A DNA stretch of 39,148 nt, from NCBI GenBank assembly GCA_002011235.1, contig MTMO01000024.1:1-39148 (forward strand), written 5' to 3'. Every line of letters begins with the position of its first letter. Position 1 is the first letter of the stretch. Of the stretch, positions 31,876 through 39,148 are shown piece after piece. The notes beneath the pieces are model-generated. The model saw only the letters and a program-made list of their open reading frames with translations. It was not told where the DNA came from and ran no database searches. Origin of the DNA: Archaeoglobus sp. JdFR-27 (GTDB lineage Archaea > Halobacteriota > Archaeoglobi > Archaeoglobales > Archaeoglobaceae). The translations under genes were made by a program, and so were the position numbers.

Positions 31876-31931
31876 GCTAAAGTATGATCAGGGTTAATTT
31901 ATTTTTGGTTAGTCCTACTTTTGGTGGTTCT

Positions 31932-33227
31932 ATGAAGTATCCCGATTTGGATGAACTCTCCGAAGAAAACAGGATTTTGAAGGAAGAAGTCCACAGATTT
32001 GCAGCTGAGATTATAAGGCCAGCTTCGATAAAACTCGATAGAATGTCGCCTGAGGAGAGGATTAAAAGAGATTCACCTTATTTTGGAGTGATGAAAAAGA
32101 TGAAAAAGCTCTCTTACCACAAACTCCATGTTCCGTCTGAATTCGGGGGACCGGATCTTTCGGCTCTGGAAAGATATATAATCATGGAAGAGCTGGGCTG
32201 GGGGAGTCTTGGACTGGCAACAGCTATAGGTGTCGATCAGATACCTTTCGTTAATGCATTGCTCTTCGGTCCTGATGAGCTTGTTGAAGACCTCGTAAAA
32301 CCTTGGTTAGAGGATGAGGAATGCAGATATCACGGATGCTGGGGGGTTACTGAGCCGGAGCACGGAAGTGATTACTTGTTATGCTTCAGAGATGAAGAGG
32401 CTAATAAATTTGGAAAGGGAAATGTTATTGCCCAAGAAGAGGAAGACGGATGGGTTTTGAAAGGGCAAAAATCTGCATGGGTTTCATCTGCTCCTGTTGC
32501 AACTCATTGCGGACTTCACGCTCAGGTTAAAGATGGAAAAGCAATCTATGATGGGATCTTCTGCATAGTTCCGCTGGATGCAGGAGGAGTAAGGAAAGGA
32601 AAGGTTGCGGACATGATGGGGATGAGAGACGGCCCCCAGGGAGAGCTTTTCTTCGATAACGTTTGGATTCCTGAGCATTACGTTGTGGTAGCTCCAACTC
32701 CATTCTACGGAATCTTTTTCGACCAGCTCCTTTGCCTGACGAGCTGTGGAATGGGGGCTTTTGCTGTCGGCCTTGCCAGAGCAGCGTTCGAAGAGGCTTT
32801 AACCTATGCCAGACAGAGAGAGCAGGGAGGAAAACCCCTTGTTAAGCATAAAAACATTAAACTGAAGCTTTACGAGATGTTTGAAAAGATAGAGACTGCC
32901 CGTTACTTTGTAAGAAAAACGATGGAGCATGTTCACAGAAAAATTCTTGAGGAGAAAACCTTCGATGCATTTCCAAGGCATTCCAGAGCGGCACAGATCT
33001 ATGCAAAAAAGATAGCCTTTGAAGTTGCAAACGAAGCTCTTCAGATTTTTGGAGCGTATGGATTGAGTTCCGATTTTATAATAGAAAAACTCTTCAGAGA
33101 CGCCAGAGCTTTGCTGATAGAGGATGGAACCATTGAAGTTTTGAGTTTTGATGCAGCTGATGATGTAATTTCGAACTACGAGAAGGATTATTACGATGTA
33201 GAGGACATTTCTGGGAGGTATGGATAG
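31932..33227 (+). CDS. Acyl-CoA dehydrogenase family flavoprotein
   Basis: The protein has 431 aa from the ATG at 31932, which follows GGTGGT; a longer form from an ATG at 31884 is possible but adds 16 non-family residues. Three-domain ACAD fold: N-terminal helices (EENRILKEEVHRFAAEIIRP), FAD-contact segment WGVTEPEHGSDYL, the DMMGMRDGPQGELFFDNVWI beta domain, and C-terminal helices ending RDARALLIEDGTIEVLSFDA. In most members the catalytic base is Glu in a Y-E-G-T motif; here the aligned motif reads E-D-G-T, with Asp (about residue 398). It oxidises an acyl-CoA using an ETF-type acceptor. Paired with the decarboxylase-like gene 61 bases downstream. Confidence 0.9.
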   Translation: MKYPDLDELSEENRILKEEVHRFAAEIIRPASIKLDRMSPEERIKRDSPYFGVMKKMKKLSYHKLHVPSEFGGPDLSALERYIIMEELGWGSLGLATAIGVDQIPFVNALLFGPDELVEDLVKPWLEDEECRYHGCWGVTEPEHGSDYLLCFRDEEANKFGKGNVIAQEEEDGWVLKGQKSAWVSSAPVATHCGLHAQVKDGKAIYDGIFCIVPLDAGGVRKGKVADMMGMRDGPQGELFFDNVWIPEHYVVVAPTPFYGIFFDQLLCLTSCGMGAFAVGLARAAFEEALTYARQREQGGKPLVKHKNIKLKLYEMFEKIETARYFVRKTMEHVHRKILEEKTFDAFPRHSRAAQIYAKKIAFEVANEALQIFGAYGLSSDFIIEKLFRDARALLIEDGTIEVLSFDAADDVISNYEKDYYDVEDISGRYG

Positions 33228-33288
33228 AGGTATGAGTTGTCTTTGGTTTAAATCGCTTAAATTTAAAATATTTTAGGAGGTGTTTGGA

Positions 33289-34029
33289 ATGGTGAAGGGA
33301 ATCCCCTTTGATTCACCTCTGTATGACGTAGAGGGGGAGATAGAGTATAGGAATTGTGAAGGAATAACAGCCTTCTTCACCATCGAAGGAGACGTAAGTG
33401 ATCTTCTACCTGAGGGATTGAAACCTCTCAGTGAGCCAGCTCAGGGAGGGATATGGATAGCTCACTATCCCTTCAGCACGGTAGGCGAATATCACGAATT
33501 TCTTTCCGTCATTCAAGTTCAGGATACGCAAGGAGAGATCGGATACTACATCCCCTATATCTATGTAACCAACGATGCAGCACTTGCAGCGGGCAGAGAG
33601 GTAGCAGGCGCTCCAAAAAAGCTTGCCAAGATAGAGTTGAAAAAAGAATATGATCTAGTTCAAGGCATACTTGAGAGGCCTTCGGGGAAGAGGCTCGTAA
33701 CTTTTACAATGAAACCGAATTATAAAGCATCTTATGACTTTATCTCAGCTATTTTGCCTAAGCCCACTCCTTTACTCTCGGTAAGGTATCTACCACCAAT
33801 AAACGGTAAAGGAGGGGTGACCCAACTTATAAAATGGTATGCTGATATCGACTTTCATTCAAACGCAAGTGGAGAGAAGGTAATTTATGGTGGAACAGCC
33901 TCTCTTACCTACGACTCACCTTCCGAGATCGATCCTGTACACAAGATAAAGATTGGAGAGATCTTAACGGCGATTTACTTCCAGTTCGACATGAAGCTCG
34001 GGTTTACAGACATATTAAATGAATATTGA
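33289..34029 (+). CDS. Acetoacetate decarboxylase family protein
   Basis: The protein has 246 aa from the ATG at 33289; a GTG nine bases earlier is in the ribosome binding site AGGAGGTG. The family mark is REVAGAPKKLAKIEL, where the first of the two lysines (Lys110-Lys111) is the Schiff-base residue and the second lowers its pKa, plus a conserved Glu around residues 67-70. The family includes true acetoacetate decarboxylase and several aldolase/dehydratase-like relatives. Being next to an acyl-CoA dehydrogenase suggests a role in ketone or acyl breakdown. The true substrate is unknown. Confidence 0.85.
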   Translation: MVKGIPFDSPLYDVEGEIEYRNCEGITAFFTIEGDVSDLLPEGLKPLSEPAQGGIWIAHYPFSTVGEYHEFLSVIQVQDTQGEIGYYIPYIYVTNDAALAAGREVAGAPKKLAKIELKKEYDLVQGILERPSGKRLVTFTMKPNYKASYDFISAILPKPTPLLSVRYLPPINGKGGVTQLIKWYADIDFHSNASGEKVIYGGTASLTYDSPSEIDPVHKIKIGEILTAIYFQFDMKLGFTDILNEY

Positions 34030-34159: not shown

Positions 34160-34726
34160 ATGACAAAAAATCTTGAAGTTAAATTTTTAGAAAACGAATC
34201 GGCTACGAATCTCATAATTTTCACGATTGACCATTCGAACAGAGAAATAGATGAATTTCTGGCTCTTCTCTTCAAAAACAAAATCAAATCGTTGGTGGAT
34301 GTTAGAAGATTTCCTACATCCAAATTTCCCCATTTCAGGGAGAAGAACCTTAATCAGTATCTTAAAGAAAGTGGAATAGAATACTACTGGATCAGAGAAT
34401 TAGGAGGTTACAGGAAGAAAATAATAGATAGCTCTCCGAACGTAGCGATAAAGAGCCAAGGTTTTAGAAACTACGCAGATTACATGCTCACATCTGAATT
34501 CGAATCAACAATTGGAAAACTTGAGGCCATAGCTCTCAAAAAGAGAACGGTGGTCATGTGTGCTGAGAAACTTTACTGATGTCACAGGAAGTTCATCTCA
34601 GATTACTTGACAATGAAAGGGTGGAAAGTCATACATATTCTTGATGATCGAAATGTGGAGCATAAAATCTCAAAAGAAGCGAGAGTTGTTGAAAACAAAC
34701 TGATTTATGATCGATTGATGGATTAA
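34160..34726 (+). pseudogene. DUF488 family protein interrupted by an in-frame TGA
   Basis: From ATG 34160 the frame codes for the DUF488 fold: FTIDHSNREIDEFLALL, SLVDVRRFPTSKFPHF (D-V-R motif), FRNYADYM, and VVMCAEKLY, then TGA at 34577-34579. The same frame continues with CHRKFISDYLTMKGWKVIHI and ends at TAA 34724-34726, a full family length of 188 codons with the stop counted as one residue. In relatives the C-A-E and C-H-R motifs are joined by a few residues, often containing Trp, so TGA may replace TGG. The conserved 3' part shows the lesion is recent, or that the stop is read through. Function of the family is not established. Confidence 0.85.
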
Positions 34727-34781: not shown

Positions 34782-35450
34782 TTACTTGACTATTTTACAT
34801 CCTTCTCCTTCTCCTCCAGCAAGCTTTACGATGTAGTCTGAAGCCTTTCTACAAGCTTCTAAAACGATCTCTTTCTCAACTCCTGACACACCGCATGCAA
34901 CCACGAGCACATTCTTTGTTGTTTCTCGAATCATCGTCAGTTTCGAGTCTCTGTGTGGATAGACATGTAGGATCTTCTTTTCATCGGCAAGAACGATCTG
35001 ATTCTCTTTTAACCCCTCTTTTTTGCCACCGATAGGCTCAAAAGTCTCCTCTCTTCTGGCTAATCTGAGTTCGAGCTCCCCTTCAATCAGATCTAGATCG
35101 TATAATCCAATAGGCACCAAAGTTTCCATGCTCGTAATGTTCCCAGCATCCACCACATTGTTTATTATGGGGATATTTCCTTTTAAACCCCTTCTCAACA
35201 ATGCCTCACTACTTGGCCTTTGTTTGGTTGGATCTATTCCTATTCTCCAGTAGAAGTCTCTGTACGCCCGAACAACAGGATGATCCTTTAGATTTTCGAG
35301 GTCGTAGTTATTTTTGATCTTCTCTAAAATTCTGTAAAATAGCTCCATCGTTTTCTCTTTACTTTTTTCAACCTTCACTCCTATCACTTTTCCTATTGAA
35401 ACAAAGATTTTGGGTTCTTTAACTGAGATTTTAAGGTTAATTTTATTCAT
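34782..35450 (-). CDS. Free-standing B3/B4 domain protein (tRNA-editing type)
   Basis: The protein has 222 aa and matches the B3/B4 domain found inside the phenylalanyl-tRNA synthetase beta subunit, where it hydrolyses mischarged Tyr-tRNA(Phe). Visible: HPVVRAYRDFYWRIGIDPTK, QRPSSEALLRRGLKG, INNVVDAGNITSMETLVPIG, GLYDLDLIEGEL and the C-terminal strand TKNVLVVACGVSGVEKE. Stand-alone copies are found in archaea and bacteria and are thought to act on misacylated tRNA or as amino-acid sensors. The ATG is at 35448-35450. It is divergent from the GNAT gene. Confidence 0.85.
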   Translation of the reverse strand: MNKINLKISVKEPKIFVSIGKVIGVKVEKSKEKTMELFYRILEKIKNNYDLENLKDHPVVRAYRDFYWRIGIDPTKQRPSSEALLRRGLKGNIPIINNVVDAGNITSMETLVPIGLYDLDLIEGELELRLARREETFEPIGGKKEGLKENQIVLADEKKILHVYPHRDSKLTMIRETTKNVLVVACGVSGVEKEIVLEACRKASDYIVKLAGGEGEGCKIVK

Positions 35451-36085: not shown

Positions 36086-36250
36086 CATATTTTACGTGTT
36101 TGTTATGAAATAGCCAAAAAAGCTGTCGAAATCGACGCTGAATTAATACAAAAGGGTAGTGTTATCTTTCCCAGATGTGGTCATTGTAGCAACTGTATGG
36201 TGTACGACTTGAAACTTCTAACTCGGGGGACGAGCATTTTAAAAAGATAA
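36086..36250 (+). pseudogene. Short cysteine-containing ORF without a start codon, possibly frameshifted
   Basis: A frame ending at TAA 36248-36250 reads YEIAKKAVEIDAELIQKGSV, then IFPRCGHCSNCMVYDLKLLT and RGTSILKR. Its composition is protein-like and it has a C-x-x-C-x-x-C cluster. No ATG, GTG or TTG lies in frame. An ATG at 36105-36107 is in another frame and stands 20 bases after TTTTTATACAT (TATA-like), so one missing base right after it would give a leaderless gene of ~48 codons. I recognise no family. Confidence 0.3.
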
Positions 36251-36924: not shown

Positions 36925-37107
36925 CCCCCATTCAATTCTTCATACAGTTCTTCATACAGTTCTTCATATAGTTTTAGCCTCTCAACTCTTTTGAAATGTC
37001 TCTTGTTTCTCGTATATACTGCAGCATTATTTTCCAGAGCGATTCCTGCAATCATCGCATCCCTGAAATCGATTTGTTCTCCTTTTTTTAATAGTTGTAG
37101 CCGAGGA
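36921..37107 (-). pseudogene. C-terminal fragment of a VapC-type PIN-domain toxin
   Basis: On the - strand the frame ending at TAA 36921-36923 reads LKKGEQIDFRDAMIAGIALE, then NNAAVYTRNKRHFKRVERLK, then LYEELYEELYEELNGG. The segment F-R-D-A-M-I-A-G-I-A and T-R-N-K-R-H-F hold two of the acidic/polar positions of the PIN nuclease site and are typical of VapC. The N-terminal half with the first catalytic Asp is missing: an in-frame stop at 37110-37112 and the integrase fragment take its place. The stop overlaps the stop of the convergent flavoprotein. No VapB antitoxin is visible. It must be inactive. Confidence 0.75.
36935..36972. repeat. 12-bp tandem repeat inside the VapC fragment
   Basis: AGTTCTTCATAC-type units follow each other about three times (the last is ...CATATAG). 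In the - strand frame each unit encodes Y-E-E-L, so the C tail is a slippage expansion that keeps the frame. Confidence 0.8.
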
Positions 37108-37345
37108 AGTTATAAAGCCGACCCATAGTAAAGATTTAGAAAAACGAATCTCCAAGTTAGAAAATCAGATTAAAGAGCTATACAACATGATACTTAGCAA
37201 AACCACCGATAACCTTCACAACCAAACTAGAAAAACATGCGCCGGCCGGGATTTGAACCCGGGGCAAGGGCTCGGCAAGCCCTGGTGTTACCAGACTACA
37301 CCACCGGCGCTGGTTAATTTATGGACATACAACCACCTTGGTTGA
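37088..37345 (+). pseudogene. N-terminal fragment, int(N), of an SSV-type tyrosine integrase, overlapping tRNA-Gly
   Basis: The frame reads VVAEEVIKPTHSKDLEKRIS, a leucine heptad coiled coil KLENQIKELYNMIL, then RKTCAGRDLNPGQGLGKPWC and YQTTPPALVN, ending at TGA 37343-37345. The second part is the antisense translation of the whole tRNA-Gly gene. C-A-G-R-D-L-N-P-G is typical of archaeal integrases whose attP lies inside int and copies the tRNA 3' part (compare SSV1 integrase PPGFEPG). On integration the gene is split, leaving int(N) at one border and int(C) at the other. Here no start codon remains: the 5' end is cut at ~37090 where the VapC fragment begins. No int(C) or second tRNA copy is seen in the window. 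Confidence 0.7.
37238..37310 (-). tRNA. tRNA-Gly (anticodon GCC)
   Basis: On the - strand: acceptor GCGCCGG/CCGGCGC, D-arm with GGTGTAGTCTGG, anticodon stem-loop GGGCTTGCCGAGCCC (anticodon GCC), and T-arm CCGGGTTCAAATCCCGG. The discriminator base is A. CCA is not encoded and there is no intron. The gene is intact although an integrase fragment covers it on the other strand, as expected for an integration site where the element restores the tRNA end. The likely promoter is CTTTAAATACC near 37362-37372 (- strand), about 55 bases upstream. Confidence 0.97.
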
Positions 37346-37456
37346 GATTTATGAAGTTTGTGGTATTTAAAGGAGTAGTAATGAAAGTTAGAATTAAAAA
37401 TTTCAGATTTATTAGATTAGGATATTTACGAACGATTTCACACCTCTAGCCAGGAA

Positions 37457-37929
37457 TTAATGATAAAAATTTAAATTAATTTTTCTTCTCTTCTTACTTG
37501 CCTCTCTAGTGTTTGATTTACTCTTTTTCTTAGTTCCTCCCTTCTTTTTAGATTTGGCAATAGTTCCAAAAGGATCTATTTTTGATAAATTTACTTTAGG
37601 AGTAGTTCTAAACAAAGTTGGTTTCTTTTTCCTTCATCTTTATAGGGGTCAATTTTTTGTACGTTTTTTTGTTGATACCCAGCTTTTTTAGTTCTCTATC
37701 AGTTAAACAGATGCTTATCATATTTTCTGTGACAGGTGGGACACATTGGAATTACTACCGACCCTCCTCTTGAATGGGCTTTTAAATGTGCCTTTTGTAG
37801 TTCCCCAATCTATTTTTCGGTTTTACCACAAAGAACACATCTGTTCTTATGTAATTTTTTAAGAGCTTCCCATTCGCTTTTGCTTATTCTGACCCTCTTC
37901 TTCTTTTCTTCACCGAACAGATCATACAT
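37457..37929 (-). pseudogene. HNH endonuclease-type gene with three lesions
   Basis: From ATG 37927-37929 the - strand encodes MYDLFGEEKKKRVRISKSEW, EALKKLHKNRCVLCGKTEK, then TAG (37810-37812), then IGELQKAHLKAHSRGGSVVI, PMCPTCHRKYDKHL. Near 37705 the frame slips by one base into LTDRELKKLGINKKTYKKLT, PIKMKEKETNFV and a stop at 37608-37610, and another frame gives RTTPKVNLSKIDPFGTIAKS and a lysine-rich tail. CxxC ... H-x-K-x-H-S-x-G-G ... CPxCH is the zinc-bound beta-beta-alpha metal core of HNH nucleases. The TAG fits a CAG-to-TAG change. Intact homologues would be ~150 aa. Such genes are common on archaeal plasmids and viruses. Confidence 0.6.
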
Positions 37930-38012
37930 TTCTAAAACTCCTGAAAATTTTTTGATATATCTTTGAGATTAAAAAAACAAAAATTTTTCTTTGGGTAAGT
38001 TAAGATTAAACT

Positions 38013-38204
38013 ATGCCTGAATGCCAATATTGTGGAAAATGGTTTAGAACAAAAAGAGGGCTAAAACAACACATAACCAAAGCACACACAACCGAAATAC
38101 CATTTTCAGGTAGAGTTTTAGATCCTACAACATTTGATTTCCTTGGTGCGATGGAAAGAAGGGAAGAACGAAGGAAAAGAAGGAAAAAAGGCCCTTTGTG
38201 GTAA
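38013..38204 (+). CDS. Small C2H2 zinc-finger protein
   Basis: The protein has 63 aa. It has a single classical finger: CQYCGKWFRTKRGLKQHITK followed by AH (C-x2-C-x12-H-x4-H) at residues 4-25, then a short linker and a strongly basic end (RREERRKRRKKG). This is the typical build of DNA-binding proteins of archaeal viruses and plasmids. ATG at 38013; no clear ribosome binding site, and TATA-like TTGATATATC at ~37953-37962. With the HNH and integrase remnants it supports a mobile origin of this region. Confidence 0.75.
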   Translation: MPECQYCGKWFRTKRGLKQHITKAHTTEIPFSGRVLDPTTFDFLGAMERREERRKRRKKGPLW

Positions 38205-38223
38205 AACTAGCGAAAATAAAGGA

Positions 38224-38379
38224 TTAATAAAAAATCTTAACGATTCCAGCCAATAGCAAAACGATCCCTATCAATACCAAAAGGAGACCGTAATCCCCAG
38301 TAACAATTTTTAAACCCCCGAAAATGAATATAATGCCCCCAATAAGGTATTTAAGAATTTGTTCCTCTCTTCTACCCAT
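38224..38379 (-). CDS. Small membrane protein (51 aa), two hydrophobic segments
   Basis: The ATG at 38377-38379 opens a 51-residue frame: MGRREEQILKYLIGGIIFIF, then GGLKIVTGDY, then GLLLVLIGIVLLLAGIVKIF. Two membrane helices are joined by a short glycine-containing turn, with a charged N terminus. AGGTGG lies 7-12 bases before the start, inside the end of the upstream gene; the stop of that gene and this ATG are one base apart, so the two are translationally coupled. No family known to me. Confidence 0.6.
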   Translation of the reverse strand: MGRREEQILKYLIGGIIFIFGGLKIVTGDYGLLLVLIGIVLLLAGIVKIFY

Positions 38380-38380
38380 C

Positions 38381-39148
38381 TTATCCACCTCTCTTCTTTT
38401 TTTTAGTCTTTTTAGGTTTTTTAGGCTTTTCTGACTTGAATATAAATTTTCTATCTCTCCGAATTCTTTTTACAGGTTTTTCAATGACTTTGAATGGAAC
38501 ATTCCTTCTCTTTAAGAATTTCTGGATGCTTTCTAAAGCACTTTTGGCACATCTTTCAGGTGGTTTAATTATCAAAACACCAATTTGATCCAATCCACAA
38601 TCTTTGTAAACGTGCAATTGATAAGGTAATCTTTGTAACTCTGTTGGATTGTCGGCCAGTTTTATTTCGAGTCCATAGGTCCTATTTATTAAGACATCAA
38701 TTCTATTTTTTCTCCCAATATTTGCTTCTGGTTCAACATTTTCATTCCCATATCTTTCTTTAAGGCATGCCAAAATGTACTTGTTAATTTCTTTATGGCT
38801 ACTAAAGTCTGGATAAAGGTTTATTTTTGATTCTAGAAATTCTAATATCTCTATTACTTCACTTTTACTTTCAAACGTTCGTTCGTCCTCCTCTATTTCT
38901 TTCACAACTTCTTTGAATTCTTGAGTTTTGAGTTCCTTTTCTCCGAATAATTCCTCTTTGAATTTTTCCAAATTATGAACCACGTCTCGATACTCTTTTT
39001 TGTACTTTCTTGCATATTCCACTACTTCCTCAAAGCTCAGGTATTCGACAAGATCTTCAATTAGATCGTATTTCGATTTCTTCCACTTTTTTGTTTCTCC
39101 ACTGAGAATATCAAATTCCTCTTCATAAGTTGGAATTCCCAGTTCTTT
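38381..39148 (-). CDS. Putative PD-(D/E)xK-type nuclease, 5' end outside the window
   Basis: At least 255 aa; the frame stays open to the window edge, so the start lies to the right (a GTG at 39022 is inside the gene). The first ~130 visible residues are charged and helical (coiled-coil-like, KEVVKEIEEDERTFESKSEV). Then comes RKNRIDVLINRTYGLEIKLA, whose D ... E-x-K spacing is the core of PD-(D/E)xK nucleases, followed by QLHVYKDCGLDQIGVLII, a fitting core strand. The end is lysine/proline-rich (KKPKKTKKKKRGG). The enzymatic role is inferred from the motif; substrate and system unknown. Cotranscribed with the small membrane protein. Confidence 0.6.
   Translation of the reverse strand, partial: KELGIPTYEEEFDILSGETKKWKKSKYDLIEDLVEYLSFEEVVEYARKYKKEYRDVVHNLEKFKEELFGEKELKTQEFKEVVKEIEEDERTFESKSEVIEILEFLESKINLYPDFSSHKEINKYILACLKERYGNENVEPEANIGRKNRIDVLINRTYGLEIKLADNPTELQRLPYQLHVYKDCGLDQIGVLIIKPPERCAKSALESIQKFLKRRNVPFKVIEKPVKRIRRDRKFIFKSEKPKKPKKTKKKKRGG

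Follow-up and report, generated by a model that had tools for sequence, protein, structure and literature searches.

An in-frame TGA in a DUF488 gene of Archaeoglobus sp. JdFR-27 that very probably marks a recently formed pseudogene

The DUF488 (PF04343) gene of Archaeoglobus sp. JdFR-27 is interrupted by an in-frame TGA and is very probably a recently inactivated pseudogene of an accessory, dispensable gene. It lies in a stretch of 39,148 nucleotides (hereafter the window), which is contig 31 of a 2.36-Mb genome in 67 contigs (99.74% complete, 3.89% contamination). Relative to its intact orthologues the window copy carries a disabling lesion, which would have arisen through one 3-nt deletion across the boundary between a conserved Trp codon and the codon that follows it (TGG-NNA-TGT to TGA-TGT). 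Such a deletion would have kept the downstream frame, so that the tail still reads as DUF488, and translation would now stop at residue 139, giving a truncated protein that ends before the CHR motif and the final strands of the fold. The loss would be recent, the tail being undiverged, and tolerated. The features concerned are collected in Table 1.

Table 1. Features of the interrupted DUF488 gene and of its surroundings in the window
Feature	Position	Strand	Evidence or remark
DUF488 gene, interrupted; nominal frame including the TGA	34160..34726	+	Pfam 95.1 bits; genus orthologues 64-73% identical, syntenic in the two checked
In-frame TGA; putative one-codon deletion site (conserved Trp and next residue)	34577..34579	+	CAE-CHR spacing
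139-aa ORF, sole product without readthrough; CHR and C-terminal quarter missing	34160..34579	+	
48 codons past the TGA, still conserved	34580..34723	+	pN/pS; window-specific changes
TIDHSNR, codons 22-28 (approximate); Asp for the invariant Gly of GHS	34220..34240	+	second lesion
Acyl-CoA dehydrogenase and acetoacetate decarboxylase-like genes, between PCMT and DUF488	31884..34029	+	missing from this place in sister G001
B3/4-domain protein gene, convergent to DUF488	34782..35450	-	same pair in G001 and G003
PIN-domain (VapC-like) gene remnant	36104..36226	+	tblastn E 6e-10 to the intact L056 gene downstream of B3/4
Second PIN-domain (VapC-like) gene, 3' remnant	36963..37097	-	tblastn 76% identity over 45 residues, E 3e-17

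The first-pass annotation had placed the TGA, codon 140 counting from the ATG at 34160, within the CAE...CHR core of a DUF488 protein (local context CAEKLY*CHRKFISDY), and both the reading frame and the PF04343 profile bear this out. With the TGA read as Trp, the read-through protein matches positions 2-121 of the 121 in the profile (E 5.9e-27), and its score is above the curated cut-off of 22.2 bits, which places the gene in DUF488. A six-frame search of the genome recovered the window gene at 93.4 bits and no second DUF488 copy, intact or other, making it the sole copy. The annotation also described the frame past the TGA as conserved and properly terminated, as it is: the tail aligns with the orthologues residue by residue, so its conservation is not due to chance, and it ends in a TAA at 34724-34726 after 48 sense codons, rather than the 49 first counted. 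The code itself is standard, since TGA is the stop of five of the 25 genes in the window, and reassignment of TGA to sense is thereby ruled out.

The spacing between the CAE and CHR motifs is four residues in the window copy, stop included, and five in every other true motif match. A regular-expression count returned five residues in 114 matches (not all of them distinct, some loci occurring in two collections as the same contig), four in a single match, that of the window, and seven in four matches, of which the one inspected lies on the opposite strand and has no DUF488 core, the other three being presumed alike and set aside. In a stricter count, which took each distinct sequence once and also demanded the GHS motif, the Gly and the five-residue spacing were found in 90 of 90 homologues. 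The window copy breaks both features, with an Asp at the GHS Gly and a four-residue spacer containing the stop, and so lacks an intact DUF488 core as defined by the GHS motif plus CAE-5-CHR. The five-residue spacer of Archaeoglobi is mostly [KR][LF][YF]W[RKN], and the closest orthologues read CAE[KR][LF]YW[RK]CHR, as in TGTGCGGAGAAGCTTTACTGGAGGTGCCACAGG of L004 against TGTGCTGAGAAACTTTACTGATGTCACAGG of the window. Compared with all homologues, the window gene is one codon short exactly at the TGA, a point that the first-pass annotation had missed.

Judging from these sequences, the stop would be explained most simply by a 3-nt in-frame deletion that fused the codon of the conserved Trp with the one after it. 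When all single 3-nt deletions were enumerated, TAC-TGG-NNA-TGT yielded TAC-TGA-TGT, the exact sequence of the window; the possible NNA codons include AGA, AAA and CGA, and TGG-NNA contexts are present in homologues (TGGAGATGT, TGGAAATGT and TGGCGATGT). A single deletion across the codon boundary would account at once for the stop, for the missing residue and for the frame having been maintained. In all four genus members that carry the gene the codon after Trp is AGG or AAG, so the deletion needs either a putative ancestor in which this codon ended in A or an additional substitution.

The lost Trp is accompanied by a second lesion. The G-to-D change in TIGHSNR falls in column G6, which is invariant in the 30-sequence alignment A1. 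Apart from it, the lost Trp is the sole break of the window copy at a family-invariant column. A total of two lies within the 0 to 2 seen in individual intact relatives and so is not unusual in itself; the weight lies in the identity of the columns. In the predicted model of an intact orthologue (L054; model m69d192d27d1d; pLDDT 96.2), the stop would remove the helix at 126-135, which starts at CHR, and the strands at 140-143, 148-150, 157-160 and 163-166, and a 139-residue product truncated in this way is predicted to be non-working. A Foldseek search with the same confident model returned nothing under E 0.001, its weak matches being SRP GTPases and Cys-phosphatases, a sequence search found no PDB relative of DUF488, and a profile search gave a single match, at E 0.5. 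CTP binding has been described for an archaeal ParB-CTPase-fold protein fused to DUF488-HTH (PMC12704722).

Downstream of the TGA the gene has changed little. With L055 or L056 as the outgroup, the tail has two residues specific to the window and 11 specific to the sister; with L057 the counts are three and seven, and more distant outgroups bring them closer to even. The pN/pS of the tail against genus members is 0.15-0.34. There is thus no excess of change downstream of the TGA, the same pattern that is expected of a recent lesion, and since the tail bears no sign of relaxed selection the lesion would be recent. An intact-looking tail fits recent loss and readthrough alike; the balance is turned toward loss by the broken spacing together with the change at Gly.

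The distribution of the gene and the state of its neighbours fit a loss that could be borne. A DUF488 match is present in 33 of the 55 genomes of the family and absent from 22; one of the 22 is G005, which belongs to the same genus and is assembled in one contig. Both PIN-domain genes are intact in L056, where they adjoin the DUF488-B3/4 pair, and only remnants of them are left in the window. Because many relatives are without the gene and nearby accessory genes are decaying, the loss of DUF488 looks tolerated. The gene resembles Archaeoglobi PF04343 proteins (Archaeoglobus sp. UBA234, DACH01000005.1; GB_MAG3_049, JACDNU010000029.1) in its convergent B3/4 neighbour, its 68-73% identity and its motifs; unlike them it is without one codon, has a TGA before CHR and carries Asp for the GHS Gly. 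With ordinary prokaryotic pseudogenes formed by small deletions or nonsense mutations it shares a single recent lesion, a conserved remainder, dispensability and decayed neighbours, the sole difference being that here an in-frame deletion would by chance have formed the stop codon itself.

Two further observations concern the surroundings. Relatives of the acetoacetate decarboxylase-like gene, at 70-94% identity, occur in G004, G003, G017, G008 and G035 on other contigs than their DUF488. At the end of the window, past tRNA-Gly(gcc), positions 37238-39148 hold small unassigned ORFs, including one for a short zinc-finger-like protein near 38013-38205, and this segment may represent an element that inserted close to the tRNA gene.

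Alternatives that keep the gene alive must be set against this reading, and one of them is that the TGA encodes selenocysteine. The TGA adjoins the conserved Cys-His-Arg motif, and a PSTK-aSelB fusion together with Sec coding has been reported in Bathyarchaeota and in one Archaeoglobus species (PMC8762117, PMC9499178). These reports supersede the first-pass statement that archaeal Sec users are methanogens and Asgard archaea, and leave the argument built on it incomplete; the conclusion that Sec is unlikely nevertheless stands, as tRNA-Sec, SelB, PSTK and SepSecS all score below cut-off in this 99.7%-complete genome. Over the whole genome, the best tRNA-Sec score is 36.7 bits (cut-off 47) and belongs to tRNA-Lys, followed by tRNA-His and others; the best SelB score is 164.5 bits (cut-off 242.25) and belongs to an EF-1alpha within the window, the second match being another translational GTPase above no curated cut-off; PSTK reaches 34.6 bits (cut-off 290.5); and SepSecS reaches 19.4 bits on a match that is SepCysS, the control, M. 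jannaschii, scoring over the cut-off in that search. A 95-nt candidate with a long variable arm (L042 1500-1595 (-), G000:C36), missed by ARAGORN, scores as a general tRNA, and its sequence reads as that of a tRNA-Ser with an intron and a putative anticodon TGA. The claim that the 3' region holds no SECIS-like hairpin is upheld by folding against shuffled sequence: three segments around and downstream of the TGA folded no better than shuffles (z -0.75, 1.60 and 0.21) and gave no stable hairpin or SECIS-like fold. Homologues have mostly Trp, Phe, Arg, Lys or Gln around the position, with no general Cys at the site, and among the homologues listed only L077 has a Cys directly before CHR. Like archaeal selenoprotein genes with Sec at UGA and a SECIS (PMC9499178), the window gene has an in-frame TGA and conserved downstream coding; unlike them it has neither the machinery above cut-off, nor the fold, nor a Cys/Sec position, and a codon is missing. 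We regard selenocysteine as having almost no chance of being correct. Readthrough by a near-cognate tRNA, which would supply a low level of full-length DUF488 protein, still selected for and with a CAE-CHR spacer shorter than usual, draws on the conservation of the 48 downstream codons and on the kept frame. That conservation is, however, equally well explained by recent inactivation; a read-through protein would fall one residue short of the spacer length of every other matched homologue and bear Asp at an invariant Gly, the TGA is shared by no relative, and folding around the site, being no better than shuffled, shows no structured element. We judge readthrough very improbable.

The undiverged tail, a pattern also to be expected under readthrough or assembly error, the reliance on a single sequence of one strain, and the AGG or AAG that follows the Trp codon in the genus members are the points against a pseudogene. 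The first two lend some weight to the view that the gene is in fact intact and was misread in sequencing, misassembled or merged from different strain variants, as do the 67 contigs, the 3.9% contamination and the selection that looks intact downstream. Against this, an exact, frame-preserving loss of 3 nt is atypical of errors, the independent replacement of an invariant Gly by Asp also points to decay, and the other syntenic genes of the window are all uninterrupted; an error is therefore unlikely, if the least unlikely of the alternatives. Synteny with G001 extends over about 27 kb, in which DUF488 is the one conserved gene with an interruption. Stops were also counted in the matches to B3/4 and GNAT, but these matches begin outside the window ORFs (35486 against 35450; 35501 against 35555), and we take the reason to be that the ORFs of G001 start further upstream; stops in other rows of the comparison belong to antisense or spurious ORFs. 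A generally poor assembly is accordingly unsupported, no other syntenic gene being interrupted relative to G001. A variant of the inactivation itself combines a TGG-to-TGA point mutation with a separate loss of the next codon. The first-pass annotation had listed ordinary inactivation by such a nonsense mutation first, and it is indeed the Trp codon that is affected; a point mutation leaves the missing codon unexplained, and adding a separate loss makes two events at adjacent codons against one deletion, with an identical functional outcome. We hold this variant to be decidedly unlikely, and a pseudogene formed by the single deletion remains the reading that we prefer.

Two genes met in the search for Sec machinery are recorded in their own right. 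At L048 916-2484 (G000:C27) lies a gene for a 522-aa translational GTPase related to EF-1alpha and SelB, which is under all curated cut-offs and is extended at the N-terminus by about 110 residues. SepCysS, a gene of tRNA-dependent Cys synthesis, is present at L139 1216-2343 (G000:C30; 569.6 bits), while no Sec coding was found.

The case illustrates how a 3-nt in-frame deletion can imitate a recoded TGA, where the missing codon alone betrays the event, and comparing motif spacing with that of homologues is an inexpensive first screen when selenocysteine or readthrough is about to be called. What the window holds is almost certainly no unusual use of the genetic code but the ordinary inactivation of an archaeal gene.
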